Below, piece by piece: positions 24,243 to 46,883 of a DNA stretch of 64,000 nt; the stretch's first letter is position 1; each line of letters starts with the position of its first letter. The notes below the pieces were generated by a model. It worked only from the letters and a program-made list of their open reading frames with translations. It made no database searches and was not told the DNA's origin. The translations under genes and the position numbers were made by a program. Source of the DNA: Alphaproteobacteria bacterium (GTDB taxonomy: Bacteria > Pseudomonadota > Alphaproteobacteria > Rhizobiales > GCA-2746425); assembly GCA_024743215.1 (NCBI GenBank), contig JANSWZ010000001.1:372001-436000 (forward strand). The letters run 5' to 3'.

Positions 24243-24311
24243 ATGACTGGTATATGGACAGATGGATCGAATTGTCCTGACCATCAGGCTTGTCTGGTGG
24301 GCATGCGATGA
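24243..24311 (+). CDS. 22-codon leader peptide coupled to the permease gene
   Basis: A short open frame starts at ATG 24243, nine bases after a very strong ribosome site (GGAGGAG at 24227-24233). It encodes MTGIWTDGSNCPDHQACLVGMR. Its stop overlaps the permease ATG in the ATGA form. The permease itself has no good ribosome site, so translation of the leader would deliver ribosomes to it. No run of one amino acid suggests classical attenuation. It could be a coupling leader or a regulatory uORF; expression is not shown. Confidence 0.5.
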   Translation: MTGIWTDGSNCPDHQACLVGMR

Positions 24312-25318
24312 GACAATTTGCCAATCGACATCCAGTTTGGAGCGGCATCATCGTGATTGCGGCTGCTGTCCTGTTGTGGATGATCTTTGCGATTTGGCCT
24401 GACTGGCTGGTGGATGCCATTGGCCGCAAGAAAATCTTCCTCAATGCGCTGTTTAACGGCATTACCCTTGGCGGCCTCTACTTTCTGGTCGCTAGTGGTT
24501 TCACTCTCATTTTTGGTCTGATGCGCAATGTCAATCTGGCGCATGGCTCCCTGTATCTTCTGGGGGGCTATATTGGCTTTTTCGTTGCCGATATGACGGG
24601 ATACTGGCTGTTGGCCTTTCCGGCTGCCTTTATCGTCGTGGGATTGCTTGGCATCCTGATGCAGATTTTCGTTTTCCAGAAGATGGAGGGTGAAGATTTG
24701 CGCCAAACGCTTGTAACCATTGGTATTTCCATCGTTTTGGCAGATCTGATGTTGTGGTCTTTTGGCGGTGATTTCTTCAATATTTCCCCACCACAATGGT
24801 TGAGTGGTCCATTGACAACCTTCTTTGTCACTGGCGCAAAAAGTTCTGGTGAGTTGGTCTATCTGAAATATCCGATCGTTCGCATCGTCATTTTCGTCGC
24901 ATCAGTTGTTATTGGGTTGGGCATGTGGATGCTGCTGAACCGTACCCGCATCGGGATGCTCATTCGTGCCGGTGTTGATGATCGTGACATGCTGTCTGCA
25001 ACTGGTGCCCGCATTCAAGTGGTGTTTATTGGCGTGTTTGCCTTTGGCGCAGGTCTGGCAGGTGTTGCCGGGGTCGTCGGTGGCACATTCCAATCTGTCG
25101 CGCCCGGCGAGGATATAAGATTTTTGCTGGCATCGCTTGTTGTGGTGATCGTGGGCGGAATGGGCTCGATCCCCGGTGCTGCAATTGGCGCGCTTGTGAT
25201 TGGCTTGGCTGAGCAACTCGGCTCGGTTTACTTTCCCACCTATGCGGTGGTGCTGACTTTCCTGATCATGGTTGTGGTTCTTGCATTCCGGCCTCAGGGC
25301 CTGTTGGGGAGAGCCTAG
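24308..25318 (+). CDS. Branched-chain amino-acid-type ABC permease (LivH-like)
   Basis: A 336-residue membrane protein with about eight helices and LivH features: GLYFLVASGFTLIFGLMRNVNLAHG, GVDDRDMLSATG (the ATPase-docking loop) and VVIVGGMGSIPGAAIGALVIG. I start at 24308, where the ATG overlaps the leader stop. Three bases separate it from the LivM-like gene. It forms half of the channel for the receptor at 19082-20344 and opens the 22.6-kb operon. Confidence 0.9.
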   Translation: MRQFANRHPVWSGIIVIAAAVLLWMIFAIWPDWLVDAIGRKKIFLNALFNGITLGGLYFLVASGFTLIFGLMRNVNLAHGSLYLLGGYIGFFVADMTGYWLLAFPAAFIVVGLLGILMQIFVFQKMEGEDLRQTLVTIGISIVLADLMLWSFGGDFFNISPPQWLSGPLTTFFVTGAKSSGELVYLKYPIVRIVIFVASVVIGLGMWMLLNRTRIGMLIRAGVDDRDMLSATGARIQVVFIGVFAFGAGLAGVAGVVGGTFQSVAPGEDIRFLLASLVVVIVGGMGSIPGAAIGALVIGLAEQLGSVYFPTYAVVLTFLIMVVVLAFRPQGLLGRA

Positions 25319-25321
25319 AGC

Positions 25322-26386
25322 ATGGCCGTCATCGATGAAAGCGGAGTGAGTGATACAGAAGGTCGTAAAACAGGCTGGGCCGAGCAGATTCCAGTGCAAT
25401 ATTGGGTTGTTGCGATCCTGCTGCTGATCATGCCCGCCTTCGCCAGTGATTTCACGCTGTATCAGATATTTGGCTGGTCTTTCATTCTTGGCATGATTGC
25501 TCTCAGCCTGATGTTTCTGGCGGGTTATGGCGGGATGGTCAGCCTGGTGCAGATGACCATTGCCGCTCTGGCTGGCTACATGATTGCGATCTTTGGCGAC
25601 AGTGCCATAACCGACATCAGCCAGGGTTGGCCCTGGTATGTGACCATTCCAATCGCGCTTATTGTGGCCATGCTGTTTGGGTCGGTTGTGGGCTGGCTGT
25701 CTGTGCGCACCGAGGGCATTTATACGATCATGATCACGCTGGCGATTGCGTCAGCCTTTTTCTACTTTACGCGCCAGAACTATGTGGTCTTTAACGGCTT
25801 TTCCGGTTTTAACGGGGTCTTGCCACCCAATCTGTTCGGGGTGGATTGGCGCGGCAGCAAGGCCTTCTATTACCTGACGCTTTTCTGGGCCGTCGCGGCC
25901 TATCTGATCGTATTGTATCTTTCCCGTGCACCGTTTGGTCTGGCGCTTCAGGGCGTGCGCGACAATCCGCGCCGGATGGCAGCGCTGGGGTTTAATGTGA
26001 ATGCCCATCGGGTTGCAGCCTACGCTTTTGCGGCAGTGATCGCGGCCATTGGTGGCATCCTGCTGACATGGCAGTCTGCACAGGTTTCACCCGGAACGGC
26101 CGGTGTCGGGCCCGTAATCGATATTCTGATTATCGCAGTGATTGGCGGTATGCGGCACCCAATTGGCCCTTTTATCGGGGCGTTTATCTACGTGCTTTTG
26201 AAAACATTCTCCATTGATGTGCTCACATCTTTGGGTCTGGGTGGTGAGCGGTTTCAGTTGCTGATCGGTATCAGCTTCCTTGTGATCGTGTTCTGGTCAC
26301 CAGACGGAATTTTGGGCCTTTGGGACAAATGGCGCCAGAGAAGCGACAAAGATCCTTTGCGTGATGCCGGGGAGAGCAATCTATGA
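25322..26386 (+). CDS. Branched-chain amino-acid-type ABC permease (LivM-like)
   Basis: A 354-residue membrane protein with LivM motifs: LAGYGGMVSLVQMTIAALAGY, GWLSVRTEGIYTIMITLA, VRDNPRRMAALGFN (docking loop) and VIGGMRHPIGPFIGA. It has about ten membrane segments and pairs with the preceding LivH-like protein. The last four bases overlap the LivG-like ATPase gene (ATGA). The ligand is unknown. Confidence 0.92.
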   Translation: MAVIDESGVSDTEGRKTGWAEQIPVQYWVVAILLLIMPAFASDFTLYQIFGWSFILGMIALSLMFLAGYGGMVSLVQMTIAALAGYMIAIFGDSAITDISQGWPWYVTIPIALIVAMLFGSVVGWLSVRTEGIYTIMITLAIASAFFYFTRQNYVVFNGFSGFNGVLPPNLFGVDWRGSKAFYYLTLFWAVAAYLIVLYLSRAPFGLALQGVRDNPRRMAALGFNVNAHRVAAYAFAAVIAAIGGILLTWQSAQVSPGTAGVGPVIDILIIAVIGGMRHPIGPFIGAFIYVLLKTFSIDVLTSLGLGGERFQLLIGISFLVIVFWSPDGILGLWDKWRQRSDKDPLRDAGESNL

Positions 26387-27174
26387 ATGCTCCCGCGACA
26401 GTTGCGGATCGGTTGAGCGCTACCGGCACTGCCAATGCGTTGGAATTGCGTGGTGTCTCCAAGCTTTTTGGTGCTCTTGCGGCTCTTTCTGACATCAGTA
26501 TTACGGTGCGCCCGGGAGAACGAAGAGCCGTGTTGGGATCGAACGGTGCCGGCAAGACCACGCTTTTCAACTGCATCACGGGCGACTTTCTGCCAACCGG
26601 CGGATCAATTCGGTTTTTCGGCGAAGATATTTCTGAATTTCCTGCCCATGAGCGCATTCGGCGCGGGTTGCGTCGCACCTATCAGATCTCATTGCTTTTC
26701 ACCGGTTTGACCGTCCTGGACAATGTATATCTGGCCTGTTGCGGAGTATCGCGCGGCCGCTTTTCCTTTATCCGTCCGCGCCGCAACGATGCGTTGATGG
26801 CAAGCGCGGAAGATCTTGTCCGGGTGGTGCATCTGGAAGATGCGAAAGACACACCGGTTTCGGTTTTGTCTTATGGTCAGCAACGTCAGCTTGAAATTGC
26901 CATGGCCCTATCTGGTGCGCCGCGCTTCATTCTGTTTGATGAACCTGCAGCCGGCCTGTCACCGACTGAGCGCGGAGAATTGGTGGAAATCCTCACCGGA
27001 CTGCCATCGCATATGGGCTACATCATCATTGAACACGATATGGATGTGGCTCTGCGGGTCGCTGAATCTGTGACCATGATGCATAATGGTCGCATCTTCA
27101 AAGAAGGCAAACCTGCTGAAATTGAAGAGGACCCGGAAGTCCAGGCGCTTTATCTGGGGGGTGATGATGGCTGA
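26383..27174 (+). CDS. Branched-chain amino-acid-type ABC ATPase (LivG-like)
   Basis: A 263-residue ATPase. Walker A is GSNGAGKTT near residue 51, the signature is the LivG form [12 protein letters not shown], Walker B is [12 protein letters not shown], and the switch His is in IIEHDM. Residues 1-20 form a short variable N-terminal extension. It overlaps the permease gene by four bases and the next ATPase fusion gene by eight, so all are translated together. It forms a heterodimer with the ATPase half of the next protein. Confidence 0.92.
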
Positions 27175-29350
27175 TCGATCAGGCCCCGTTCTCGAGGTTC
27201 GAGACCTCAATGTCTATTATGGTCAATCTCATGCCTTGCAAGGCGTGAATTTGACATTGAGCCGTGGCGTGTTGTCCGTGGTTGGGCGTAATGGCATGGG
27301 GAAAACAACCCTTTGCAAGGCAATTATGGGTCTGGAGCCCATGGCGGCTGGCTCCATCAGTTTCAACGGGCAATCGCTGGCGGGATTGATTCCAGCCCAG
27401 ATCGCACGGCTTGGTATCGGCTATGTGCCACAGGGGCGTCGGCTGTGGCGGTCGCTGACAGTGGATGAGCATCTGCAACTTGTTGCGCGCAAAGGCGGTG
27501 CCTGGACGCCTGAACGTATTTATTCAACCTTCCCAAGACTGGCCGAACGCAAATCCAATGGCGGCGCACAATTATCTGGTGGCGAACAGCAGATGCTGGC
27601 TATTGGCAGAGCGCTTCTGCTGAACCCTAAATTGCTGGTTATGGATGAGCCGACCGAAGGTTTGGCCCCGGTTATCGTCAATCAGGTTGCCGAAATGTTG
27701 GTGCGACTTGCCAAAGAAGATGATGTCGATGTTCTCGTGATTGAACAGAATATCGGTGTGGCCTGTTCGGTTTCCGAACAAGTTGCCATCATGGTCAATG
27801 GCAAGATCAACCGGGTCATGGATGCCGGGTTGCTGGCTGGTGATCGGGACCTTCAACAGGCCTTGTTGGGCGTTGGCAGGCATGCTCACGATGAAACGCC
27901 TGATGCCAATGCGGCTGAAAGGTCTGAGGGCAAGGATCAGGACCACGACCAGGATCATGAGCAGGGTCCGGTTCGGATTTATGTGTCCAATCCGAAAGTA
28001 CCTACGCGCTGGTCGCAGCCGGTTCCGGTGCGCGTTATCGAAGGTAGCGCCAGAACGCAGACGCAGGAACGCACGAGCGGTAGCAGTTCCAGCGGACCGA
28101 TGCGTGCGCTGTCCCGAGGCGCCGCCACAACAGTGTTGGTAGCAGGAACGCTGGATACGAAGGGTGAAGAACTGCGCTTCATGCGCGATTTGCTGAAGGC
28201 AAACGGATTGCGGGTTCAACTGGTGGATCTGTCCACCAGTGGCAAGCCCTCTGGCGCTGAGGTTCCGCCCCATGCGGTTGCTGCGTTCCATCCAAGGGGC
28301 GTATCTGGTGTTTTCACCGGTGATCGGGGAACGGCTGTTGCTGGCATGACATTGGCGTTTGAGCGCTGGATTGCCCATCAGAGCAATGTAGCCGGTGTCA
28401 TTTCTGCCGGAGGTTCAGGCGGAACAGCCTTGGTTGCGCCAGCGATGCGGGCTCTGCCCATTGGTGTGCCGAAACTCATGGTTTCCACGGTCGCAAGTGG
28501 CAATGTGGGACAATATGTCGGCCCCGCAGACATTATGATGCTGCATTCAGTGGCAGATGTTCAGGGATTGAACTCCATAACGCGAGAAGTCCTGTCCAAC
28601 GGTGCTCAGGCAATGGCTGGCATGGTCAAAAGCCGCGCAAAGGTGCCCGTGGTCGCCTCGGAGAAACCGGCCATAGGCCTCACCATGTTTGGGGTCACAA
28701 CACCCTGTGTTCAGCAAATCACCGCCCAGCTTGAAGATGATTATGATTGTCTGGTGTTCCACGCCACTGGCGTTGGCGGGCGGTCCATGGAAAAGCTTTT
28801 GGACAGCGGCATGTTGTCGGCTGTTCTCGACCTGACCACGACAGAAATCTGCGACATGATTGCGGGGGGCGTATTTCCTGCCACAGAAGATCGGTTCGAT
28901 GCCTCAATCCGTGCGGGGATCCCCTTTATCGGGTCCTGCGGCGCGCTTGATATGGTGAATTTTGCTGCTCCGGAAACGGTGCCAGAGAGATATCGCGACC
29001 GAAACCTGTATGAACACAATCCACAGATCACCCTGATGCGCACGACGTCGGACGAAAACCGGCAAATGGGACATTGGATTGGTGAGAAGTTGAATTTGAT
29101 GACTGGGCCCGTGCGCTTTTTCCTGCCGGAAGGCGGAGTGTCTATGCTCGATGCGCCTGGAATGGCGTTTCACGACCCGGAGGCTGACGCCGCCCTGTTT
29201 GGTGCTTTGGAAGAAACCGTGCGCCAGACCACCAACCGTCAATTGATACGAGTTCCACACAATATCAACGACCAGGCATTTGCTGATCTGGTTGTTCAAA
29301 CTTTCCGCACCTTTCATTCCGTGCGGACCAAAAAAGTCTCAGGAGAATAA
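27167..29350 (+). CDS. LivF-like ABC ATPase fused to a Tm-1-like (UPF0261) ATP-binding domain
   Basis: A 727-residue fusion. Residues 1-240 are a complete LivF ATPase: [36 protein letters not shown] and VIEQNI. Residues 240-315 are a low-complexity linker rich in Asp, Glu, His and Gln, then Ser and Arg. From about residue 320, [13 protein letters not shown] begins a full UPF0261 domain ([44 protein letters not shown]). In tomato Tm-1 this domain is joined to a TIM barrel. Here the barrel is the next gene, 3 bases away. The ATG at 27167 is chosen over 27164 for spacing from GGGGG. The fusion ties an unassigned enzyme to the importer; its reaction is unknown. Confidence 0.9.
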
Positions 29351-29353
29351 TGC

Positions 29354-30181
29354 ATGTTTGATCGCAATGAGTTGATGAAGCGATACCGGGAAATGGTGGC
29401 CAAGGGTGAGCCGATCATTGGTGGTGGTGCCGGTACGGGCCTGTCAGCGAAATGCGAAGAGGCGGGCGGTATTGATCTGATCGTGATCTATAATTCAGGG
29501 CGTTACCGCATGGCAGGTCGCGGCAGTCTCGCTGGCTTGATGCCTTATGGCGATGCAAATGCTGTTGTCATGGACATGGCCGGAGAAGTGTTGCCGGTGG
29601 TAAAACATACACCCGTTCTGGCCGGTGTTTGCGCCTCCGATCCGTTTCGGATCATGGACAAATTCCTGGATGACGTAAAAGCAGCGGGCTTTTCCGGTGT
29701 GCAGAATTTTCCAACTGTTGGACTGATTGACGGTAACTTCCGGGCCAATCTGGAAGAAACCGGAATGTCCTACAGTCTGGAAGTCGACATGATCGCGCTG
29801 GCGCATGAAAAGGGCCTTCTGACCACGCCTTATGTGTTTTCCACGGAAGACGCGACGGCCATGGCCAAGGCCGGAGCGGATATCATTGTCTGTCATCTGG
29901 GACTGACAACAGGCGGTGCCATTGGCGCCGAGACCTCGCTGACGCTGGAGCAATGCCCCGCGATCGTTGATGAATGGGCAGCAGCGGCGCTGGCAGAGAA
30001 GCCTGACGCGATCATCCTGGTGCATGGTGGGCCAGTGGCCATGCCTGAGGACGCAGCTTTCGTCCTGAAACACACTTCGAATTGTCACGGCTTTTATGGC
30101 GCTTCCTCAATGGAACGGCTGCCAACAGAAATTGCACTGACAGAACAAACCAGAAAATTCAAACAGATCGGCCGCAGTTAA
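29354..30181 (+). CDS. Phosphoenolpyruvate hydrolase-family TIM-barrel protein (Tm-1 C-terminal type)
   Basis: A 275-residue TIM barrel of the PF09370 type, which is annotated as phosphoenolpyruvate hydrolase-like but is functionally poorly defined. Recognisable blocks are [51 protein letters not shown] and [18 protein letters not shown] precedes the start. The family usually travels with UPF0261 proteins, and the two are one polypeptide in plant Tm-1. Here UPF0261 is attached to the preceding ATPase instead. The pair probably acts together on an early intermediate of the operon's pathway. Confidence 0.85.
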
Positions 30182-30202
30182 GCGGTAACGAGGGAGCATG
30201 CC

Positions 30203-33703: not shown

Positions 33704-34140
33704 TGGCTCGGGTTTACATCTCATCCGTCATCAATGCACCGGCGGCAAAGGTCTGGGAATATATCCGGGATTTCAACGGGTTGCCGAAGTGGCATCCACG
33801 TATCCGTGACAGCCGTATTGAAGACGCGCTGCCTTCGGACAAGGTGGGCTGTATTCGCAGTTTCCATCTTCAAAATGGCGATGCGTTACGCGAGCAACTT
33901 CTGGGTCTGTCTGATTACGACATGTTCTACACATATGCGATCCTTGAAAGTCCGATGCCGCTTACCGATTACATTTCAACACTACGCCTGACACCTATCA
34001 CAGATGGTGAGCGCTGTTTTGGCGAATGGTCTGCGGAGTTTTCATGTGATCCGGCGAATGAAACAGATTTGGTAACGGGTGTTGGTACCAACGTTTTTCA
34101 GGGCGGCTTTGACGCGCTGAAACGGCATTTCGGTAATTAG
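33703..34140 (+). CDS. SRPBCC-fold protein (CoxG-like), first copy
   Basis: A 145-residue START/SRPBCC-fold protein. The opening YISSVINAPAAKVWEYIRDFNGLPKWHP is typical, as is a late hydrophobic helix near GGFDALKRHF. It begins inside the stop codon of the SPFH gene (one-base overlap). It is homologous to the protein at 34679-35122. In carbon monoxide dehydrogenase operons an SRPBCC protein, CoxG, helps recruit the enzyme to the membrane, and a similar role next to this molybdenum enzyme is plausible. A lipid-, ligand- or cyclase-type function is possible too. Confidence 0.82.
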   Translation: MARVYISSVINAPAAKVWEYIRDFNGLPKWHPRIRDSRIEDALPSDKVGCIRSFHLQNGDALREQLLGLSDYDMFYTYAILESPMPLTDYISTLRLTPITDGERCFGEWSAEFSCDPANETDLVTGVGTNVFQGGFDALKRHFGN

Positions 34141-34186
34141 AAACCTGATGAAACGGGTCGGTTTTCAAACGACGGGAGGAAACGTC

Positions 34187-34657: not shown

Positions 34658-34678
34658 GTCGGGACGGGTTAGGCGATC

Positions 34679-38246: not shown

Positions 38247-38247
38247 A

Positions 38248-39270
38248 ATGGCACTTCACAAAGGGCGCGGCTTTGCCTGTATCAACTATCCCATCGGTAT
38301 GAATCTGGGTGGCGATCCCAGTCAGGCACTGGTGCATTCCACGCCTGATGGCAAATTCATGGTGTCGTTGAGTGCCATTGATCTGGGGCAGGGGATGAAG
38401 TCTGTCACCCGGCAGATAGCGGCTGAAACACTGGGTGTTCCCGTCGCAGACGTCTATGTGGACACAGCAGACAGCGATACTGGGCCTCATGATATGGGCT
38501 CATTTGCCTCACGTGGAACGCACCGTGTGGGCAATGCGGTCATTCGTGCTGCGGCTGAAGCACGCGCGGCAATGATGGAAGCTGCCGCAGATGAGTTGGA
38601 AGTCAATCCTGCTGATCTGGACACGGATGGCGAAGGCAACATTCATGTCAAAGGCGCGCCGGGTCGGTCTATAACTGTGGCCGATACGGCCATTGCGGCA
38701 CAATTCAAGCAAGGGAAAACGCTCTCGGGGAGAGGTATCTTTCTCATTCCAACTTCAGATGTGGATGCTGATACGGGCGAGATGACACCTGTGTCCTGTT
38801 TTGCCCATGCCGCCGTTGTGGTTGATCTGGAAGTTGATGATGAGACCGGTGAGGTCACGGTCAGTCAGGTGAATTCTGCCTATGAGGTTGGCCGTGCGCT
38901 CAACCCGAAAATGGTGGAGCAGCAATTGATTGGTGGCGCATGGATGGGCATTTCTCATGCGCTCTATGAAACCACGGAGCCCTACTATCCGGACCGCTCT
39001 CACGGTCCTGATGACTACAATAGCTATTTGATGCCGGGCGCAGGCGACGTGGTGCCTCATAATATTGCGGTACTGGAACGGCCTGCAGAGGACGCGCCAT
39101 TTGGCGGTAAGGGCCCGGGCGAGATGTGTGCCAATCCGCTACTGCCTGCTGTCGCGAACGCCATTTACAATGCTGTTGGGGTGCGCTGCGATATGTTGCC
39201 GATTACTCCTGAAAAAGTTTTGCGTGGCATTCAGGCCAATGGCGGAGCCCAACCAAAGGGGACTTTCTAA
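38248..39270 (+). CDS. Molybdenum hydroxylase large subunit, C-terminal half
   Basis: A 340-residue protein that supplies the second Mo-pterin domain: MALHKGRGFACINYPIGMN, IDLGQGMKSVTRQIAAE, DMGSFASRGTHRVGNA, and GGKGPGEM with the Glu that acts as base in this family. The start at 38248 has a perfect AGGAGG seven bases upstream and begins one base after the first half's stop, so both are meant to be translated. It must assemble with the first half to form the active site. The usual domain boundary falls exactly at the break. Confidence 0.88.
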   Translation: MALHKGRGFACINYPIGMNLGGDPSQALVHSTPDGKFMVSLSAIDLGQGMKSVTRQIAAETLGVPVADVYVDTADSDTGPHDMGSFASRGTHRVGNAVIRAAAEARAAMMEAAADELEVNPADLDTDGEGNIHVKGAPGRSITVADTAIAAQFKQGKTLSGRGIFLIPTSDVDADTGEMTPVSCFAHAAVVVDLEVDDETGEVTVSQVNSAYEVGRALNPKMVEQQLIGGAWMGISHALYETTEPYYPDRSHGPDDYNSYLMPGAGDVVPHNIAVLERPAEDAPFGGKGPGEMCANPLLPAVANAIYNAVGVRCDMLPITPEKVLRGIQANGGAQPKGTF

Positions 39271-39273
39271 GCC

Positions 39274-40155
39274 GTGGCAGTTCGTCCTTCCATTGCTGGT
39301 ATCAATTCGCCGGACGGTTTGCAGTCTGCGCTTGTTGGTGCGCAATATTTAGCGGATGAGGGTTTGTCGACATCGGCCTATCTGGCACTGGCGTTGGGAA
39401 AACCGCTTTTGCTGGAAGGTGCGCCCGGTGTGGGTAAAACGGAAGCCGCCAAAGCAATTGGTGCTGTGTTGGGGCGCACGGTCATTCGCCTGCAGTGCTT
39501 TGAAGGTATTGATGCGGCGGCAGCGCTTTATGAATGGAATTACACCCGGCAGATGCTGGCCATTCGTCAGGCTGGCGATGAATATGTGAATATATATGGC
39601 GATGAATTTCTGTTGGCTCGTCCGATGTTGGAAGCATTGCGGTCACCGGAAAATACAGTCCTGCTGATTGATGAAATCGACCGTTCTGATCATGAATTTG
39701 AAGCGTTTTTGCTGGAGTTCTTGTCTGACTTCCAGATTTCAATTCCGGAAACAGGCACGGTTCGGGCCACTCAGGCTCCTGTAGTCGTGCTGACTTCCAA
39801 CCGCACACGCGATTTGCATGAAGCACTGCGTAGGCGCTGCGTCTATCATTGGATTGATTATCCTGATGCGGCCCTTGAAGCTGAAATCGTCATGACACGT
39901 GCCAGCACTGTGGTGCGTGCCACGGCTGATGCTGTTGTGGCCGCTGTCACACAATTGCGAGCAGAGCCTTTGGCGAAGCCTCCAGGCGTGGCTGAAACCG
40001 TGGAGTGGGCAGAAGCTGCAACATTGTTGCATTCGCAAGGCAATCCTTGGCCGCAGGCGTTTCGCAAGGCCATTGGCGTGGCGCTGAAAGACCATGATGA
40101 TCTGACATATATGCAGCCGCGACTCGATGCGCTGCTTCCATCGGAGGCCGCATAA
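39274..40155 (+). CDS. MoxR-type AAA+ ATPase (CoxD-like)
   Basis: A 293-residue AAA+ ATPase starting at a GTG. Walker A is EGAPGVGKTE near residue 48, Walker B is VLLIDEIDRSD near residue 128, and the sensor segment is VLTSNRTRDLHEALRRRC. It overlaps the next gene, a VWA protein, by one base. MoxR/VWA pairs act as chaperones in metalloenzyme maturation, and CoxD/CoxE do so for the Mo-Cu site of CO dehydrogenase. Here they follow the molybdenum hydroxylase directly and probably mature its active site. Confidence 0.9.
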   Translation: MAVRPSIAGINSPDGLQSALVGAQYLADEGLSTSAYLALALGKPLLLEGAPGVGKTEAAKAIGAVLGRTVIRLQCFEGIDAAAALYEWNYTRQMLAIRQAGDEYVNIYGDEFLLARPMLEALRSPENTVLLIDEIDRSDHEFEAFLLEFLSDFQISIPETGTVRATQAPVVVLTSNRTRDLHEALRRRCVYHWIDYPDAALEAEIVMTRASTVVRATADAVVAAVTQLRAEPLAKPPGVAETVEWAEAATLLHSQGNPWPQAFRKAIGVALKDHDDLTYMQPRLDALLPSEAA

Positions 40156-41255
40156 TGCTTCCGCGCGCCATAGAACCTTTTGTGAATTTTGCCGGGTTGT
40201 TGCGCGCCCATGGTTTTGCTGTGGCTCCGGATCAAACCACTGGGTTTATTGAAGCCATTGGGCTGCTGGGCCCTCGGCATATGAATGATATCCGCCGGGC
40301 GGCATTATCAATGCTGGCAATTCCTCGAGAGCGGGAAACGGAGTTCGATGCGCTGTTCCGGGCTTTTTTCATGGGTCAGACGGTCGCGGCACCCGCCAAT
40401 GCCGGTGACGATGAAGAAGAGGTTGAGGCGTTTGAAGCCAGTGACGGCGAATCCGAGGTGCCTGAAGGAGATGAAATTGAGGATTCCGGTGCTGAGGCGA
40501 CGGCTGCTGAAAGTTTGAGCCAGCGCAGTTTCGGGCCGCGGGACGAAGCTGCTGCCTTGCAGGATTTCGCGCGCCGTGCACCCGGCAGTTTGCCGCGTCG
40601 CTTGTCTTACAGGCGTTCTGCTGCGCGTCACGGAGAACGACTGAATATGCGCAAAGCACTGCGCGAAGCCGTGCAACGCGATGGGGAAGTGTTCACACTG
40701 CCGCAACTGCGCCGAAAGACACGGCAACGGCGATTGTTGCTGCTGATTGATGTTTCAGGCTCGATGAAAGAGCAGACAGACGCAACTTTGCGCTTTGCCC
40801 ACACACTGGCACAGGTGGCGGACCGATTTGAGGCTTTTACACTTGGCACGCGCCTGACGCGCATTACGCAAGCACTTGCGCCGAAAGACAGTCAGGAAGC
40901 TTTGGAACGAACCGGCCGACTGGTTGCCGATTTTGACGGCGGCACACGTATTGGCGATGCGCTTCAGGCGTATTTGGCTGTGCCCAGATTTGCCGGGTTT
41001 GCCCGTGGATCTGCCGTGATCGTGCTGTCTGACGGGTTGGAACGCGGCGAGCCGAATGCGTTGATTGACGCGGTCTGGCGACTGTCACGCATGGCCTGGC
41101 GTTTGGACTGGCTGTCGCCACTTGCCGGAGATGCCGGCTATGTGCCTCAGACAGAAGCTCTGGCCGCTATTCGTCCTTATCTCGACAGTCTGTCTGATGG
41201 CAGTGATACGCAGGCCATCTGTAACCACGTTTTGAACCTTGCGAGGGCTGCATGA
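40155..41255 (+). CDS. VWA-domain protein (CoxE-like) with acidic linker
   Basis: A 366-residue partner of the MoxR ATPase. Residues 1-75 are an N-terminal helical domain. Residues 80-120 are very acidic (DDEEEVEAFEASDGESEVPE region). From about residue 190 a VWA domain follows with the metal motif LLLIDVSGSMKE, then FDGGTRIGDALQAYL and VIVLSDGLERGE. The layout is that of CoxE. It overlaps both neighbours. Role: substrate-recognising partner of the AAA+ ATPase during assembly of the molybdenum enzyme, by analogy. Confidence 0.9.
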   Translation: MLPRAIEPFVNFAGLLRAHGFAVAPDQTTGFIEAIGLLGPRHMNDIRRAALSMLAIPRERETEFDALFRAFFMGQTVAAPANAGDDEEEVEAFEASDGESEVPEGDEIEDSGAEATAAESLSQRSFGPRDEAAALQDFARRAPGSLPRRLSYRRSAARHGERLNMRKALREAVQRDGEVFTLPQLRRKTRQRRLLLLIDVSGSMKEQTDATLRFAHTLAQVADRFEAFTLGTRLTRITQALAPKDSQEALERTGRLVADFDGGTRIGDALQAYLAVPRFAGFARGSAVIVLSDGLERGEPNALIDAVWRLSRMAWRLDWLSPLAGDAGYVPQTEALAAIRPYLDSLSDGSDTQAICNHVLNLARAA

Positions 41256-42127
41256 TCGACGCACATCACCATATCTGGCTGCAGAAGGATCTGCCCTGGT
41301 TGCTGGGACCTGAGCAACCACGTATTTTTGGGCCCTACGCCGACATCAAGCGTGACTATCTGATTGATGAATATCTGAATGACCTTAAAGGGCTTGGCAT
41401 TACCAAATCGGTTTATGTTCAGGCCAATTGGGCACCCAACTGGTTCGAGGACGAGGTGGCCTGGGTTCAATCAGTGGCCGACGTAAGCGGCTGGCCTCAT
41501 GGCATTGTCGGTTATGCGGATTTTATGGTCGATGATGTGCGGCCGCAATTGGATCGCCTGAAGAAATATCCCTTGATGCGCGGTGTGCGCCAGCAACTGC
41601 ACTGGCATGAAAACCCGCTTTACCGCTTTGCTGCGACACCGGATCTGCCGACCAATTCTGTGCTCCAACGCAATATCGCGCATCTTGGTGACTATGGTTG
41701 GACTTTTGATTTGCAGGTGTTTTCCGGTCAAATGGAGGCTGCCGTCGAGCTGGCACATGCGTGCCCGGATGTGACGTTCATTTTGCAGCATGCGGGCATG
41801 CTGGAAGATTCCAGCGTAGATGGCTGGGCTGCATGGCGCAAGGGCATGAAGCGTCTGTCCAAGTGCAAGAATGTGGTGACGAAGCTTTCAGCATTCGGAA
41901 CCTTTATTCATCGCAATGATCCGGAATTCATCGCGGAGATGGTTTCTGAAACTGTGGGGATCTTCGGGGCCAAGCGCTGCATGTTCGGCTCCAACTTTCC
42001 GATTGAGAAATTGTGGACCTCCTATGCGGAGCTGTTTGCAGCCTTTCAGAAAGCAACCTCCGGTCTGCCAAAAGCACAGCAAAAGGCGATTTTTCACGAC
42101 ACCGCAGCGCGGGTCTACCAACTTTGA
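41252..42127 (+). CDS. Amidohydrolase_2-family metal hydrolase
   Basis: A 291-residue TIM-barrel hydrolase (PF04909). The metal motif HxH is at residues 5-7 (IDAHHHIW), a later His is in FILQHAGM near residue 176, and the C-terminal strand reads RCMFGSNFPIEK, where the usual Asp is Asn, as in part of this family. The family includes lactonases and decarboxylases acting on sugar lactones and aromatic acids. It overlaps the VWA gene by four bases (ATGA). In this operon it likely works on a ring-opening or decarboxylation step after hydroxylation. Confidence 0.87.
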   Translation: MIDAHHHIWLQKDLPWLLGPEQPRIFGPYADIKRDYLIDEYLNDLKGLGITKSVYVQANWAPNWFEDEVAWVQSVADVSGWPHGIVGYADFMVDDVRPQLDRLKKYPLMRGVRQQLHWHENPLYRFAATPDLPTNSVLQRNIAHLGDYGWTFDLQVFSGQMEAAVELAHACPDVTFILQHAGMLEDSSVDGWAAWRKGMKRLSKCKNVVTKLSAFGTFIHRNDPEFIAEMVSETVGIFGAKRCMFGSNFPIEKLWTSYAELFAAFQKATSGLPKAQQKAIFHDTAARVYQL

Positions 42128-42185
42128 CGTATCAATTAGCAATCACGGGCCATTGGCCCATCGGACTTAAAAGGGAGAAACACAT

Positions 42186-43034
42186 ATGGCGCTGACAATT
42201 CATGTTCTCGATTATGGAGACATCGAACTGGAGACTTCATTCCTGGTGCTTGGTCATGAATGTGGCCGGGTGCGGCGGGTTCCGGTTTACGGCTTTCTGA
42301 TCCTTGGCGGCGAATATCCAATCGTTGTCGATACCGGGTATCGGGACAATGCGATCATGGAATCGCTGGGAATGCGCGGGCTGCAGTTCCACGACAATAT
42401 GATTGAAAATCAATTGGCCAAACATGGCGTTAAAATGGGCGATGTGCGCTACGTGCTGCACACCCATCTTCATATTGACCATGCAGGCAAGGATGATCTG
42501 TTCCCAATGAACACCACGGTGGTGATCAACCGCAAGGAAATGGAATTCTCTGTTTCTGGCATCATGTTTCCGCAATATCCAAAGCCGGATATTCTGCACC
42601 TTGTAGAGCGGATTTATGAGCCGGAAGCGATGCGGTTCCTTGATCTTGAAATCACGCAGGCTGAGGAAATAATTCCCGGCGTGTGGTGCGAGGCAGCCGG
42701 TGCACACACCGAAGGCTCCATGAATGTGATTGTTGAAACCGCTGAAGGTCTGGCCTGTATCTGCGGTGATGTGATTTATGATTTCAACGACCAGATCGTC
42801 AACCATGTCCACACCAATATGGATATGGAGCCACGGGTAACCGGCAATCATTCCGGCTCGAAGCGGGAAGAGAAGGGCGCTATCAAACGCCTTTTGAACA
42901 ATTATAAATTCCTGCTGCCTGTGCATGATCGTCCAGCCAAAATTGATCGCCAGAAAGTTGTCGGCCGTTTGGGCATGACGGTTCCTGGCCCTCTGGTTGA
43001 AACTGTGCCGAACCGGGACTGGTTCCCCGCGTAA
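42186..43034 (+). CDS. Metallo-beta-lactamase-fold hydrolase (AHL-lactonase-like)
   Basis: A 282-residue MBL-fold enzyme. Zinc ligands are all present: THLHIDHAG near residue 92, His in AHTEGSMNVIV near residue 176, Asp in CGDVIYDF, and the last His in LPVHDRP near residue 245. The spacing resembles N-acyl-homoserine lactonases. No quorum-sensing genes are nearby, so a lactone or cyclic amide intermediate of the operon pathway is the more likely target. The 58-base gap upstream contains AAGGGAGAAAC as ribosome site. Confidence 0.88.
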   Translation: MALTIHVLDYGDIELETSFLVLGHECGRVRRVPVYGFLILGGEYPIVVDTGYRDNAIMESLGMRGLQFHDNMIENQLAKHGVKMGDVRYVLHTHLHIDHAGKDDLFPMNTTVVINRKEMEFSVSGIMFPQYPKPDILHLVERIYEPEAMRFLDLEITQAEEIIPGVWCEAAGAHTEGSMNVIVETAEGLACICGDVIYDFNDQIVNHVHTNMDMEPRVTGNHSGSKREEKGAIKRLLNNYKFLLPVHDRPAKIDRQKVVGRLGMTVPGPLVETVPNRDWFPA

Positions 43035-43054
43035 GGGGCTTGGAGGACAGCATT

Positions 43055-44674
43055 ATGAGCCACACCGCGATTGACCGGAATTTTCACAAGCTCATTGATG
43101 AATATGCGCCTGTTGCCCAACTGGGCACGGGATTTGTATTCACAGAGGGACCGATCTGGCACCCGGTGCAAAACCATCTGCTGTTCTCTGATATGCCGGG
43201 CGATGTCCGGCGCAAATGGACACCGGATGGACGCATTGAAGAAGTCATGCGCCCGTCCAACAAAGCCAATGGCATGACCTATGATGCGGATTTGAATTTG
43301 TTGGCCTGCGAACATGCCACCAGTTCTGTTGCGCGCTTTCTCCCAGATGGAAGGCGGGAGGTTCTGTGTTCCCATTTTGAAGGCAGGGAGCTGAATTCTC
43401 CCAATGACATCTGCGTGCGATCGGATGGCCGTATCTACTTCACAGACCCGACTTATGGGCGGATGGAACATTTTGGCGTGCCACGTTCAACCCAACAGGG
43501 GTTTCAGGGCGTTTACATGCTGGAGCCGGGGCACAATCCGGGCGATGAGCCTGTGCTGGTGTCCGATCGGTATATGTTCAACCAGCCAAATGGTTTGTGT
43601 TTCTCGCCCTGCGAACGGTGGATGTGGGTCAATGATACCGATCAGGCCAATATCCGCATGTTTGACGTTGGTGATGACGGACGATTGACCAATGGGCGGA
43701 TTTTTGCGTCAGGCATACGAGATTCTATGAAGCCGGGTCTGCCAGATGGCATGAAGGCTGATATTGAAGGCAATGTCTGGGTGACAGCGCCGGGTGGTGT
43801 CTGGGTCTATTCATTCCATGGCATGCTGCTCGGTAAGGTGTCTGTTCCTGAAATGGTCGCCAATCTGCATTGGGGTGGTGACAATTGGGACACGCTGTTC
43901 ATGACCTCCAGCACGTCGCTTTACTCGGTGAAAACAAAAGTGCGGTCGCGCAATGAACCTTTCATGAATCCCAATGTTCAAACCGGCGGAGCAACAAACG
44001 TGACATCAGCGCAGCCACAAGCCCAAACGCAACCACAATCACAGTCACAAACACAAATTGGCGGGGCCGGTTTGAAAATCGATCCAAGCAAAGCGGTCTT
44101 GCTTATACAGGATATGCAAAATGACGTCATGATGGATGGCGGCGCATTTGCGGAAACCGGGTCTCCTGAACACGCAAAGCAGCAAAATGTGCTGGCCAAT
44201 TCCGCGCGTCTGGCCGAGGCCTGTCGCGCTGCCGGTGTGCTGGTCATTCATGTGTGGCTTGTATGTGAACCAGGCCATCCGGCAATGGCACGCAACTCAC
44301 CTTTGATGGAAGGCCTGATTGACGGAAATGCCATGGTACGCGGCACATGGGGTGTTCAACCCGCTCCCGGGCTGGAGCAGAAGCCTGGTGATCTGGTCGT
44401 GGAAAAAATGACAATGAGCGCCTGGGAAAGCGGACGACTGGAAAATTACATCAAGGGCGCAGGCCGCAATGTCATCATCAATACCGGTGCCTGGACCAAT
44501 ATGAGCGTTGAGCACACGGCTCGGACCGGCGCTGACAAGGGCTATAAGATTGTTCTGCCGGAAGATGCCTGCTCCACCATGAACGCAGACTGGCACCGGG
44601 TTTCCATTGAATACGCCATGACGAATGTGGCGACTGTCACCAATGTTGATGCGGTGATTGCAGCCCTGAGGTAA
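43055..44674 (+). CDS. SMP-30/gluconolactonase fused to an isochorismatase-like domain with Cys replaced by Ser
   Basis: A 539-residue fusion. Start at 43055 follows TTGGAGGACAG. Residues 1-300 form the six-bladed SMP-30 lactonase fold (FTEGPIWHP, GMTYDADLNLLACEH, LNSPNDICVRSDGRIYFTDPTYG split). Residues 305-341 are a Gln/Pro/Ser/Thr linker. Residues 342-539 are an isochorismatase-type domain. Its Asp353 (LIQDMQND) and Lys451 (VEKMTMSAW) are kept, but the nucleophile position in TNMSVEHTA is Ser484, where Cys is usual. The first half probably opens a lactone. The second may hydrolyse an amide by a changed mechanism or be non-catalytic. Confidence 0.87.
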   Translation: MSHTAIDRNFHKLIDEYAPVAQLGTGFVFTEGPIWHPVQNHLLFSDMPGDVRRKWTPDGRIEEVMRPSNKANGMTYDADLNLLACEHATSSVARFLPDGRREVLCSHFEGRELNSPNDICVRSDGRIYFTDPTYGRMEHFGVPRSTQQGFQGVYMLEPGHNPGDEPVLVSDRYMFNQPNGLCFSPCERWMWVNDTDQANIRMFDVGDDGRLTNGRIFASGIRDSMKPGLPDGMKADIEGNVWVTAPGGVWVYSFHGMLLGKVSVPEMVANLHWGGDNWDTLFMTSSTSLYSVKTKVRSRNEPFMNPNVQTGGATNVTSAQPQAQTQPQSQSQTQIGGAGLKIDPSKAVLLIQDMQNDVMMDGGAFAETGSPEHAKQQNVLANSARLAEACRAAGVLVIHVWLVCEPGHPAMARNSPLMEGLIDGNAMVRGTWGVQPAPGLEQKPGDLVVEKMTMSAWESGRLENYIKGAGRNVIINTGAWTNMSVEHTARTGADKGYKIVLPEDACSTMNADWHRVSIEYAMTNVATVTNVDAVIAALR

Positions 44675-44679
44675 GCGAA

Positions 44680-45735
44680 ATGAAAACCATGAAAGGCCCG
44701 GCAATATTTCTGGCCCAGTTTGCGGGCGACAATGCGCCATTTAACTCGCTGGAAAATATTGTAAAATGGGCTGCTTCCCTTGGTTACAAGGGTGTCCAGA
44801 TACCGACCTTCGACAAACGGCTGTTTGACCTCGACAAAGCAGCCGCCAGTTATGATTACTGCGACGAAGTCATCGGCATATGCCGCGAGGCTGGTGTCGA
44901 GGTGACCGAGTTGTCCACACATCTGCAAGGGCAATTGGTGGCGGTGCATCCTGCCTATGACGCAATGTTTGATGCGTTTGCACCAGAAGAGGTGCGTGGC
45001 AATCCGTCTGCGCGGCAGGCCTGGGCGGTTGATCAGGTGACGAAAGCAGCACGGGTCAGCCAGCGTATGCGACTGGAGGCCAGTGTTTCCTTCACCGGTG
45101 CGCTTGCCTGGCCATTTGTGTATCCCTATCCACAACGGCCCGAAGGATTGGTGGAAGAAGCTTTTTCAGAACTGGGACGGCGCTGGCGCCCCATTCTGGA
45201 TGCCTATGACGCATCCGGTGTGGACCTTTGCTATGAAATTCATCCCAGTGAAGATGTGTTTGATGGAACGACCTTTGAGCGTTTTCTGGAACAGGTCGGC
45301 AATCACAAACGTTGCATGATCAATTACGATCCGAGCCATTTTGTGCTGCAATGCATGGATTATCTCGGCTTCATCGATGTCTATCACGAACGCATTGGTG
45401 CGTTTCATGTCAAGGATGCCGAGTTCAATCCATCCGCCCGCCAAGGTGTCTATTCAGGGTATTCCAACTGGGTAGACAGGGCAGGCAGGTTCCGGTCACT
45501 TGGAGACGGGCAGGTCGACTTTTCCGCGGTGTTTTCAAAGCTTGCCGCTTATGATTACGATCGCTGGGCCGTGCTTGAATGGGAGTGCGCTCTGAAACAC
45601 CCTGAAGATGGTGCTGCAGAAGGCGCGCCCTTTATTCGTGATCACATTATCCGTATCACCGACCATGCTTTTGACGATTTTGCTGGTTCCGGTACGGACC
45701 GGGCGACCAACCGCAAGCTGCTGGGCCTGACTTGA
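44680..45735 (+). CDS. Sugar phosphate isomerase/epimerase-family TIM barrel
   Basis: A 351-residue protein of the xylose isomerase-like TIM-barrel family (PF01261). Metal-site candidates are Glu in LCYEIHPSED near residue 187, Asp in INYDPSHF near residue 219, His and Asp in GAFHVKDAEF near residue 246, and Glu in AVLEWECAL near residue 300. It lies 5 bases after the fusion gene and its TGA overlaps the ATG of the following oxidoreductase. Such pairs with Gfo/Idh/MocA enzymes are common in inositol-like and sugar-derivative pathways. The substrate is not known. Confidence 0.88.
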   Translation: MKTMKGPAIFLAQFAGDNAPFNSLENIVKWAASLGYKGVQIPTFDKRLFDLDKAAASYDYCDEVIGICREAGVEVTELSTHLQGQLVAVHPAYDAMFDAFAPEEVRGNPSARQAWAVDQVTKAARVSQRMRLEASVSFTGALAWPFVYPYPQRPEGLVEEAFSELGRRWRPILDAYDASGVDLCYEIHPSEDVFDGTTFERFLEQVGNHKRCMINYDPSHFVLQCMDYLGFIDVYHERIGAFHVKDAEFNPSARQGVYSGYSNWVDRAGRFRSLGDGQVDFSAVFSKLAAYDYDRWAVLEWECALKHPEDGAAEGAPFIRDHIIRITDHAFDDFAGSGTDRATNRKLLGLT

Positions 45736-46883
45736 TGGAAACCGGAAGCAAACGACCGCGCATACGTTTGGGAATGGTGGGTGGTGGACAGGACGCCTTC
45801 ATTGGCGGCGTTCATCGCATGGCGGCACGGCTGGATGATGAGTTTGAGCTTGTTGCCGGGGCGTTGTCTTCATCGCCCGAGCGCGCTTTAGGGTCGGGGC
45901 AGGCATTGGGGCTTCCGTCTGACCGCATTTATACGGACTATGAGACCATGGCGCGGTCTGAAAACGCCCGGCCTGATGGCATTGACGCTGTTGCAATTGT
46001 AACGCCCAACCACATGCATTTCAAAGTCGCGGAAACATTCCTCAATCTTGGTTTTCACGTCATCTGCGATAAGCCGATGACGCTGAGCTTAACCGAAGCC
46101 CAGCGCTTGCATGACATGGTGAGCCGTTCCAGCCGTGTGTTTGTGTTGACGCATAATTACTCCGGCTACCCCATGGTGCGGCAGGCCCGTGAGATGGTTC
46201 AGAGCGGTGCCATAGGCGATGTCCGTGTTGTGCAGGCTGAATATCCTCAGGGGTGGTTGAGTTCACGTCAGGACAGTAAGCAGGCCGAATGGAGGAGTGA
46301 TCCTGCTCGTGCCGGTGCAGGTGGGTCGATTGGTGATATCGGCACGCATGCCTATCACCTTGCGCAGTTCGTCACCGGGCTGACAGCAGAGGAATTGACA
46401 GCTGATCTTGCCACCTTTGTACCGGGACGCCAGTTGGACGACAACGCCCATATTCTGTTGCGTTACAAGGGCGGCGCGCGCGGTATGATTTGGTCCAGCC
46501 AGGTTGCCATCGGCAAGGAAAACGCATTGCGACTGCGCGTGTTTGGCAGCAGGGGCGGGCTGGAATGGTCTCAGGAAGAGCCAAACATCCTTTGGGTGCA
46601 TGATCTGGGCGCATCCACGCGAAAGATCACCCGTGGTTCACCTGAAGCCGGCGAAGCGGCAAGCCGCGTAACACGCATTCCCGCTGGTCATCCGGAAGGC
46701 TATCTGGAAGGCTTTGCAACGATCTACCGGGAGGCTGCAGAGCTGATCCGCGCCGCTGACGGTGATAGCGTTTCCGATCCGGCAGCGATGGCACCGGACT
46801 CGGCAGATGGTCTTGCCGGGCTGCAATTCATTGATGCGTGTGTGCGCTCAAATCTGCAGGGGTCCAGCTGGGTGCGGATCTGA
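45735..46883 (+). CDS. Gfo/Idh/MocA-family NAD(P)-dependent oxidoreductase
   Basis: A 382-residue dehydrogenase. Residues 8-130 form the nucleotide-binding fold (LGMVGGGQDAFIGGVH, VAIVTPNHMHF), with the catalytic Lys in VICDKPMTLSL near residue 101. The C-terminal substrate domain carries GGSIGDIGTHAYHLAQFV near residue 194. Start at ATG 45735 overlaps the previous stop by one base. It is the last gene of the 22.6-kb operon. Paired with the isomerase-like barrel it suggests that a polyol- or sugar-like part of the substrate is oxidised and rearranged. Confidence 0.9.
   Translation: METGSKRPRIRLGMVGGGQDAFIGGVHRMAARLDDEFELVAGALSSSPERALGSGQALGLPSDRIYTDYETMARSENARPDGIDAVAIVTPNHMHFKVAETFLNLGFHVICDKPMTLSLTEAQRLHDMVSRSSRVFVLTHNYSGYPMVRQAREMVQSGAIGDVRVVQAEYPQGWLSSRQDSKQAEWRSDPARAGAGGSIGDIGTHAYHLAQFVTGLTAEELTADLATFVPGRQLDDNAHILLRYKGGARGMIWSSQVAIGKENALRLRVFGSRGGLEWSQEEPNILWVHDLGASTRKITRGSPEAGEAASRVTRIPAGHPEGYLEGFATIYREAAELIRAADGDSVSDPAAMAPDSADGLAGLQFIDACVRSNLQGSSWVRI

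Follow-up and report, generated by a model that had tools for sequence, protein, structure and literature searches.

What is a flotillin-type protein doing in the middle of an operon for the import and oxidation of a small molecule? The question is posed by a window of 64,000 nucleotides from an alphaproteobacterial genome, in which 20 genes on the + strand follow one another from a LivH-type permease, whose start codon is TTG at 24290 or ATG at 24308, to position 46883 (Table 1). Neighbouring genes share a few bases or are separated by at most 21, the sole exception being a gap of 58 bases (42127/42186). These values derive from gene coordinates, with the LivF-UPF0261 gene counted from its likely start near 27164; its frame opens at 27086. 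A preliminary description had seen here one co-directional operon with LivHMGF-type import, a split molybdenum (Mo) hydroxylase, an SPFH protein and several hydrolases, and both the coordinates and Pfam bear this out. By its Pfam domains the importer is of the LIV type (HAAT), with two BPD_transp_2 permeases, two ATPases and a Peripla_BP_6 binding protein, and the hydroxylase is of the xanthine dehydrogenase family, with 2Fe-2S pair, FAD subunit, hammerhead, MoCoBD_1 and MoCoBD_2.

Table 1. Genes of the locus, in window coordinates.
Feature	Position	Strand	Basis and remarks
LIV-type solute-binding protein (Peripla_BP_6)	19040..20344	+	Pfam 3e-50
Iron-containing alcohol dehydrogenase	20452..21582	+	Pfam; some related loci have one
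Aldehyde dehydrogenase	21594..23024	+	Pfam; some related loci have one
AraC-family regulator	23122..24048	+	Pfam; adjoins LivH in most Mo-bearing loci
LivH-type permease	24308..25318	+	Pfam BPD_transp_2
LivM-type permease	25322..26386	+	Pfam BPD_transp_2
LivG-type ATPase	26383..27174	+	Pfam ABC_tran
LivF-type ATPase-UPF0261 fusion (probable kinase domain)	27164..29350	+	Pfam; fold/profile match to Tm-1, Saro_1862; start codon inferred
PEP-hydrolase-like TIM barrel	29354..30181	+	Pfam 3e-130; PDB 2P10 1e-119
SPFH/flotillin protein, 1166 aa, hendecad arm of ~790 residues	30203..33703	+	Pfam Band_7, Flot
SRPBCC protein 1	33703..34140	+	Pfam Polyketide_cyc2; paralogue of SRPBCC 2
SnoaL-like protein, signal-peptide-like start	34148..34657	+	Pfam SnoaL_2; few relatives carry one
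SRPBCC protein 2	34679..35122	+	Pfam Polyketide_cyc2
Mo hydroxylase FAD subunit	35126..35926	+	Pfam FAD_binding_5, CO_deh_flav_C
Mo hydroxylase 2Fe-2S subunit	35926..36408	+	Pfam Fer2, Fer2_2
Mo subunit N half, C-terminal tail ending SRFISGTRRR	36408..38246	+	Pfam Ald_Xan_dh_C, MoCoBD_1
Mo subunit C half	38248..39270	+	Pfam MoCoBD_2; start codon (ATG ~38248) inferred
MoxR-type AAA ATPase, CoxD-like	39274..40155	+	Pfam AAA, AAA_5
VWA protein, CoxE-like	40155..41255	+	Pfam VWA_CoxE (PF05762) 2e-42, over cut-off
Amidohydrolase, lactonase type	41252..42127	+	Pfam Amidohydro_2; PDB 4DLF
Metallo-beta-lactamase fold, lactonase type	42186..43034	+	Pfam; PDB AHL lactonases, 4-pyridoxolactonase
Gluconolactonase-type + isochorismatase-type fusion	43040..44674	+	Pfam SGL, Isochorismatase; last conserved gene
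Xylose-isomerase-like TIM barrel, local addition, non-core	44680..45735	+	Pfam AP_endonuc_2
Gfo/Idh/MocA oxidoreductase, local addition, non-core	45732..46883	+	Pfam

Is the set an accident of one genome? The preliminary description held that known families are not normally combined like this, a view that finds no support: the arrangement is widespread, and the operon behaves as one conserved system. In a sample of 297 genomes of the order, an SPFH gene lies within 12 kb of 45 of the 55 UPF0261 frames long enough to be fusions, versus 2 of the 86 shorter ones. In a sample of 349 genomes of the phylum it accompanies all 12 fusion-length frames, nine of these 12 genomes being already in the order sample. 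SPFH gene and fusion are mostly together, not apart. Among the 62 named loci with at least 9 kb downstream, 60 carry the SPFH gene and two SRPBCC genes and 49 carry the Mo hydroxylase; the gene order is identical in all 49, and this recurrence exceeds chance.

The 20 genes had also been taken for one membrane-organised system. The linkage of SPFH and fusion speaks for such a system, but the 20-gene span does not survive as its unit. The conserved unit begins upstream of LivH, with the binding protein, dehydrogenases and AraC gene, and ends with the lactonase-isochorismatase fusion. A Peripla_BP_6 binding protein is found also in the locus of Yoonia, of Shinella and in most long named loci, and the SGL-Isochorismatase fusion recurs in all 10 further genomes. 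The two genes that follow it do not keep their place: in the stretches fetched from G002 and G003 both are absent from the corresponding place, and the Gfo/Idh/MocA gene has no match anywhere in those stretches. Relatives of the xylose-isomerase-like gene, common elsewhere, occur in 129 of the 297 genomes. On these grounds both genes were dropped as core members. In L094, however, relatives of the two are found on the upstream side of the locus. Within the unit, the SnoaL-like gene is matched only in L041, L042, L112 and G003, and five Mesorhizobium-type loci gave no match to the PEP-hydrolase.

The protein that raises the question passes the Pfam cut-offs for Band_7 and Flot and falls far below the NCBIfam cut-off for FloT (34 versus 700 bits). 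It resembles Flotillin1/2 and HflK/C, described in the available text of PMC11260169, in its SPFH/Flot domains, predicted N-terminal membrane helix and long charged helical region. Those proteins make closed cages, and flotillin walls are there portrayed as sealed barrels, fit for isolating reactions. Unlike them, the protein here sits in a catabolic operon, and whereas the flotillin wall helix has 186 residues, the arm among the relatives of the present protein runs from 218 to 892.

Then there is the manner in which that length varies. The arm has a sequence periodicity of 11, strongest at 44, and its length changes among relatives in steps of 11 residues, falling on two phases modulo 11 in 68 of 68 members of a first set and 26 of 27 of a second; control lengths occupy all 11 classes. 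This quantised arm is new. A literature search found no mention of the hendecad in the 20 matches listed of 36, and no DNA tandem repeats were found in the gene. An AlphaFold model of the single chain has a mean pLDDT of 58, with breaks in the helix. In the named set, SPFH proteins have 835-1260 aa in Mo-bearing loci (n=54) and 562-784 aa in those without Mo (n=14), at least one of the 14 (L070) lying at a contig end with the Mo gene beyond view. That cargo sets arm length was rejected as a rule; there is only a trend, and two further loci without Mo reach 857 and 959 aa. The loci without Mo retain both SPFH and SRPBCC genes, and since type B loci have SPFH without the Mo enzyme, the SPFH protein serves more than the hydroxylase.

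What, then, might attach the hydroxylase to it? The large Mo subunit is divided between two genes, one with hammerhead and MoCoBD_1, the other with MoCoBD_2. Read by eye, the translations show the motifs of the xanthine dehydrogenase family: for the catalytic Glu, GPGE in the C half, and for the cluster Cys residues of the FeS subunit, CGQGTCGTC and CGYC...CRC. Scores lie far below the NCBIfam equivalog cut-offs for CoxL, 4-hydroxybenzoyl-CoA reductase and XdhA, and identity with the second of these was rejected on that account. At the split point the N half bears a variable Pro/Ala-rich tail that ends approximately in RFxSxxGxRRR. The end is RR or RKR in all 51 N halves and fits the strict pattern in 48. 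Among 8312 frames of at least 100 aa the strict pattern has 53 matches, 50 of which share their tail with a known Mo subunit, and the other three sit at the Mo subunit's place. The tail is absent from nine of nine related split subunits taken from stretches without SPFH, eight of them adjoined by CoxD and CoxE genes. The tail, its conserved end and its co-occurrence with SPFH are new, and because it is present in SPFH loci and absent from those nine relatives, it gives physical linkage a concrete form. A tailed subunit also occurs in G261, whose draft genome showed no SPFH. Since the distribution of both tail and SPFH follows a single clade, one event may account for their association. A C-terminal motif of the SPFH protein was considered as the docking partner and set aside as not general (22 of 54 Mo-bearing loci, none of 14 others).

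The Mo subunit of nicotinate dehydrogenase, likewise of the xanthine dehydrogenase family, consists of two polypeptides, as in this operon. In the PDB the N half matches its 425-residue chain (3HRD) best; the operon differs in the long, conserved-end tail at the split, the SPFH protein and the CoxD/CoxE-type partners. As in aerobic CO dehydrogenase (CoxD/CoxE/CoxG), a MoxR-type AAA gene and a VWA_CoxE gene follow the Mo genes and there are small SRPBCC-type proteins. Of the Cox-like factors named in the preliminary description, the AAA and VWA proteins stand by Pfam and CoxG does not: neither SRPBCC protein matches that family, Pfam giving only Polyketide_cyc2, with Polyketide_cyc in addition for SRPBCC 1. 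Unlike in the Cox system, these two are paralogues (43% identical) from another Pfam family, and the Mo subunit is not CoxL. Pfam found no CoxF in the operon.

At the other end of the system, the second ABC ATPase is fused to the N and C domains of UPF0261 (PF06792 and PF23189, both over cut-off), with the Tm-1 fold (the best chains score TM 0.84-0.87). The domain is homologous over its full length to Saro_1862, whose structure was solved in the presence of acetovanillone (PDB 9MPY), at 33% identity; the fold is the same, and most of its conserved blocks recur in that protein. The homology to an acetovanillone-binding protein is new. Saro_1862 is probably the aromatic kinase MarK, described for that organism as a single-component kinase with which the breakdown of acetovanillone begins (PMC13101465, available text); PMC12911418, PMC13406360 and PMC11837543 held nothing of use on MarK or the Saro numbers. 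UPF0261 is often a separate gene adjoining PEP-hydrolase-like genes, with several transporter types, and the available text of PMC5028733 reports that it co-evolves with a TIM-barrel gene (491 of 504 barrel genomes also have UPF0261). The same succession is seen here, unlike that pair and unlike MarK and Tm-1 in that UPF0261 is fused to LivF, and unlike the pair in being tied to SPFH. The literature search found no text naming UPF0261 together with flotillin, nor any paper naming flotillin together with molybdenum hydroxylase.

I propose, with slightly less than even confidence, that the operon encodes one uptake-and-oxidation system, in which import-coupled phosphorylation is followed by oxidation on a flotillin-type scaffold. 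The importer and its own binding protein would take up a small hydroxylated compound, probably aromatic or heteroaromatic; UPF0261 on LivF, judging by homology, would phosphorylate it on entry and so trap it; and the PEP-hydrolase-like barrel would work on the phosphorylated compound. The SPFH protein, with its N-terminal helix as anchor, would build a flotillin-type cage or collar walled by the long hendecad helices, to which the Mo hydroxylase might dock through the RFxSxxGxRRR tail. Beside the docked enzyme the two SRPBCC proteins may hold a hydrophobic partner, either a quinone or the substrate, and the CoxD/CoxE-like proteins would mature the Mo centre. The lactonase- and amidase-type enzymes would then open the product, ring opening being suggested by the hydrolase families. 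A bolder version, which I put forward as a doubtful possibility, is a bacterial metabolic compartment of a new kind, an anchored flotillin cage loaded by the tail and fed by a kinase-bearing ABC importer. Its wall height would be set in units of 11 residues, reaching roughly 100 nm or beyond should the arm run as a single continuous helix, and the split of the subunit would serve to free a C-terminal docking tail.

An alternative, itself rather unlikely, is that the SPFH protein organises a membrane microdomain without any closed compartment, gathering importer and oxidase laterally, with the tail as tether to SPFH or lipid and a lipophilic substrate or quinone handed over more easily. Bacterial flotillins are usually described, in the text available, as microdomain scaffolds, a basic tail suits lipid as well, and SPFH and SRPBCC are kept in loci without Mo; yet Flotillin1/2 and HflK/C make closed cages (PMC11260169, as available), and the exact 11-residue steps point to an ordered coiled wall. 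The tail's partner could indeed be lipid, or else a maturation protein. It is improbable that the tail is unconnected with SPFH, the latter being only co-regulated, and recruits the CoxD/CoxE-like proteins or some other partner. Their genes lie directly 3' of the Mo genes, and the co-occurrence of tail and SPFH would then be no more than the history of one clade, but CoxD and CoxE do not need the tail, because eight of the nine tail-less relatives have both genes alongside.

Nor need UPF0261 be a kinase: as a regulatory domain that binds ATP, it may gate the importer. One would expect a gating domain to be fused to the ATPase, as UPF0261 is; identity to Saro_1862 is only 33%, and plant Tm-1 is an antiviral inhibitor (PMC5028733, available text). 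I consider this unlikely, since separate UPF0261 genes beside PEP-hydrolase-like genes and several transporter types fit an enzyme better, as do the blocks common to Saro_1862. Of similarly low probability is an ordinary operon for catabolism of an N- or O-heterocycle, in which SPFH would only assist, in stress or in quality control. A normal pathway can be composed of the importer, the dehydrogenases, the Mo hydroxylase and the hydrolases, and Mo loci that lack the tail but have these enzymes occur without SPFH. Against such an operon stand the tight linkage of fusion and SPFH and the association of tail and SPFH.

The substrate of the proposed uptake-and-oxidation system may be a common environmental compound, because genomes of Bradyrhizobium, Bosea, Roseibium and the roseobacter type all carry the operon. 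The hydrolases have PDB relatives that point to lactones and amides (4DLF for the amidohydrolase, 3E5Z for the gluconolactonase type, 3KL2 for the isochorismatase type; AHL lactonases and 4-pyridoxolactonase for the metallo-beta-lactamase fold). None is close enough to name the substrate, and the attempt was given up; the L-fucono-lactonase NCBIfam model scores 99 against a cut-off of 400 bits. Vitamin B6 and nicotinate were considered and found unsupported, as was the acetovanillone (Hpe/Acv) route, Pfam showing no carboxylase gene in the operon.

If the proposal is right, a bacterial flotillin, one of a class of largely obscure function, acquires a defined job, a cargo and a likely docking signal. 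The UPF0261 family, to which the plant antiviral gene Tm-1 belongs, is tied to an importer ATPase, which suggests that an ABC system can couple import to phosphorylation. For experiment, the tail, the divided Mo subunit and the stepwise length of the arm offer short, concrete handles. Many bacteria of soil and sea have the block of about 20 genes in its conserved order.

The genes for the flotillin-like SPFH protein and for the LivF-UPF0261 fusion, an importer-type ATPase joined to a UPF0261 domain, belong to a widespread, conserved system. The preliminary description had proposed one membrane-organised system, to be refuted if the two genes proved mostly apart in related genomes. That pattern was sought in whole genomes and not found, because most fusion-length frames adjoin SPFH in both samples searched, one from the order and one from the phylum. 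In 297 genomes of the order, 141 UPF0261 matches were listed (E up to 1e-40), and frames of at least 600 aa were counted as fusion-length, on length alone. On the same strand and no more than 12 kb away, SPFH accompanies 45 of the 55 fusion-length frames but only 2 of the 86 shorter ones (Fisher p 2e-24, relatedness ignored), one of those two being a fragment of 173 residues on a contig of 7.5 kb. Judged from the other side, 45 of 48 SPFH matches of at least 360 bits adjoin UPF0261, as against 2 of 24 weaker ones. As for the ten long frames with no SPFH nearby, two genomes (G105, G245) have a strong match (at least 360 bits) on another contig, two frames (G121:C212 and G116) sit at contig ends, one genome (G102) has the operon cut into two parts about 170 kb apart, both kept, and the frames of G204, G150, G070 and G230 match UPF0261 only distantly (at most 321 bits). 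The draft of G261 has no SPFH match. Among 349 genomes of the phylum, read by eye, SPFH is adjacent to 12 of 12 fusion-length frames and to 0 of 18 others, though the order sample had already included 9 of the 12 genomes concerned. Twelve of the 13 SPFH matches that reach 358 bits stand beside a listed fusion and the last (G579) beside a diverged LivF-UPF0261 match.

Named genomes were also scanned by means of a UPF0261 alignment, and of the best 80 among 589 confirmed stretches, 72 have an SPFH match. Among the 62 of these 80 with 9 kb or more of sequence following the fusion, the SRPBCC pair stays with SPFH in 60 (SPFH was not found in the other two, L063 and L111) and the Mo hydroxylase is present in 49, all 49 with the order UPF0261, PEP hydrolase (where present), SPFH, SRPBCC 1, SRPBCC 2, FAD, FeS, Mo-N, Mo-C. 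These loci were picked by UPF0261 similarity, and the whole-genome searches served to lessen that bias. Ten additional Mo-bearing genomes were read downstream, and all have, in order, CoxD, CoxE, amidohydrolase, metallo-beta-lactamase (9 of the 10) and the SGL-isochorismatase fusion, after which a binding-protein gene comes next in two. No description of this system was found in the open-access literature searched.

In the window itself, the preliminary description's run of twenty genes in one direction is borne out: all lie on the + strand, with overlaps of a few bases and gaps of at most 21 bases apart from one of 58. Most of its domain calls agree with Pfam and some had to be corrected; the SRPBCC proteins, in particular, do not fall in the CoxG family by Pfam. 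The quartet directly upstream recurs beside the locus in other genomes.

Features of the locus in the window
Feature	Position	Strand	Remark
LIV-type binding protein, iron-type alcohol dehydrogenase, aldehyde dehydrogenase, AraC regulator	19040-24048	+	directly upstream of operon
LivF-UPF0261 fusion	27164 (probable start)-29350	+	
SPFH protein	30203-33703	+	1166 aa
Mo-N	36408-38246	+	N half of split Mo subunit
Mo-C	38248 (probable start)-39270	+	C half of split Mo subunit

Within the genus, the locus is present in two of the four other species examined (G002 and G003), with matched proteins 88-100% identical; G001 has an unfused UPF0261 only, and a search of G004 for UPF0261 found none. Farther away, a Yoonia and a Shinella plasmid keep an identical gene order from the binding protein through the SGL-isochorismatase fusion, with no SnoaL match in either locus and no ALDH or metallo-beta-lactamase match in that of Shinella. 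On a Variovorax plasmid the importer and fusion genes are accompanied by PEP hydrolase, SPFH and a pair of SRPBCC genes; the stretch read there shows no Mo enzyme. In Thermomicrobium UPF0261 is unfused and stands with importer and PEP-hydrolase genes and an unsplit Mo hydroxylase, and the stretch has no SPFH match. The xylose-isomerase-like gene has relatives in 129 of the 297 genomes of the order, none of them, by eye, closer than 50 kb to SPFH in other SPFH-bearing genomes. Three consecutive tyrosine recombinase genes after the Yoonia locus (L033 35085-38268) hint at mobility. Yoonia LivG, PEP hydrolase and FeS subunit each match in two pieces (L033 14189-17907 and 23260-23735), as if by frameshift or assembly error. 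Five Mesorhizobium-type loci (L105, L106, L109, L114, L115) have fusion, SPFH and SRPBCC genes and no PEP-hydrolase match. L088, labelled Frankia, has a match pattern nearly equal to that of Bradyrhizobium loci and is perhaps mislabelled.

Splitting of the Mo subunit is already known: the best PDB match of Mo-N is a 425-residue chain of nicotinate dehydrogenase, 3HRD_A. What is new is that the split point bears a tail. Across 51 loci (the window, the Yoonia and Shinella plasmids, and 48 named loci), Mo-N runs 523-640 residues from the match start, with a variable Pro/Ala-rich stretch (P 25%, A 17%) after MoCoBD_1 and then a short end, approximately RFxSxxGxRRR, at the very C-terminus. All 51 end in RR or RKR and 48 fit the strict pattern RFx[ST]x(2-7)R[RK]R(1-2). 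Among 8312 frames of at least 100 aa in the stretches over 9 kb, that pattern has 53 matches, 50 sharing their last 22 residues with the tail set and three (L068, L125, L128) occupying the Mo subunit's place. Each of six more first-tier Mo-N genes carries the tail, that of G116 departing from the strict pattern; those of G041 and G205 end exactly as L047 and L084 and are not independent cases. A second tier of split subunits (n=9, 50-58% identical) stands beside FAD, FeS and Mo-C genes, with CoxD, CoxE and amidohydrolase in 8 of 9, one SRPBCC gene in 3 of 9 and no SPFH match in stretches of 14-16 kb. All nine stop, without tail, 451-463 residues after the match start. G261, one of the six additional first-tier cases, has a tailed subunit and no SPFH match in its draft. 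Since tail and SPFH follow one clade, their association may be a single event.

The locus exists as type A, with the Mo hydroxylase, and type B, without it. In the three type B loci checked, SRPBCC 2 and a zinc-type dehydrogenase form a single fused protein, and one type B locus, L079, has FAA hydrolase, alpha/beta hydrolase and amidohydrolase alongside. Several genomes with a tail-less split subunit hold a Mo-less SPFH locus elsewhere (e.g. G208, G121, G089).

Linkage and tail together make membrane organisation well supported; a compartment and the chemistry remain plausible proposals. The sequence of the SPFH protein is periodic in steps of 11 residues, with the strongest signal at 44. Its arm, taken from a fixed anchor in the SPFH domain to another close to the C-terminus, is 218-892 residues long, and in the 68 of 69 proteins measurable (one gave no C-terminal anchor) all 25 distinct lengths are 1 or 9 mod 11, a pattern with a chance of about 2e-17 if lengths are uniform and independent. 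Of 27 further proteins from whole genomes, one identical to a protein of the first set, 23 fall in class 1, three in class 9 and one (L145) in class 4. Classes 9, 1 and 4 are spaced 3 residues apart, about one helical turn. Tailed Mo subunits, as control, spread over all 11 classes. The AlphaFold model is mostly helical over 204-1020, at low confidence and with breaks. Flotillin cage wall helices are reported at 186 residues (PMC11260169); by extrapolation at 0.15 nm per residue, a 790-residue helix, if unbroken, would reach about 118 nm.

The two SRPBCC proteins are paralogues, 43% identical. Their nearest functional analogue known to me would be CoxG, a likeness of function only: CoxG is described as a quinone-binding protein, proposed to carry electrons from Mo enzyme to quinone pool (PMC13240472), and a growth effect has been reported (PMC4240915).

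The predicted fold of UPF0261 (pLDDT 87) resembles Tm-1 (best chains TM 0.84-0.87) and also 9MPY (TM about 0.6, 33% identity), an entry titled as acetovanillone-bound Saro_1862 from Novosphingobium aromaticivorans; most of the conserved blocks are common to UPF0261 and Saro_1862. Acetovanillone catabolism in that organism is reported to begin with MarK, a single-component kinase (PMC13101465), and I infer that Saro_1862 is MarK. The joining of such a domain to LivF suggests import-coupled phosphorylation. In Thermomicrobium the locus further includes a PEP/pyruvate-binding gene and a PEP-utilising one, a type of pair for which phenol phosphorylation has been reported elsewhere (PMC12167813).

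UPF0261 and PEP-hydrolase genes also occur together in L122 and L123: in Azospirillum close to a 2-dehydropantoate reductase gene, with Mo hydroxylase and SRPBCC genes in the stretch, and in Bradyrhizobium close to a ketopantoate hydroxymethyltransferase-like gene. The window's genome has a second, unfused UPF0261 gene (G000:C10:125343-126533). Downstream of the operon, at 47081-50017, are a phosphatidylethanolamine-binding-protein-like gene and, on the opposite strand, a polar-amino-acid-type ABC importer. Upstream, at 8635-18868, a group of genes may form a catabolic cluster of betaine or sarcosine type: two choline-kinase-like genes, an inositol monophosphatase, a DeoR regulator, an ABC importer of glycine-betaine type and a large FAD oxidoreductase that includes an aminomethyltransferase domain.
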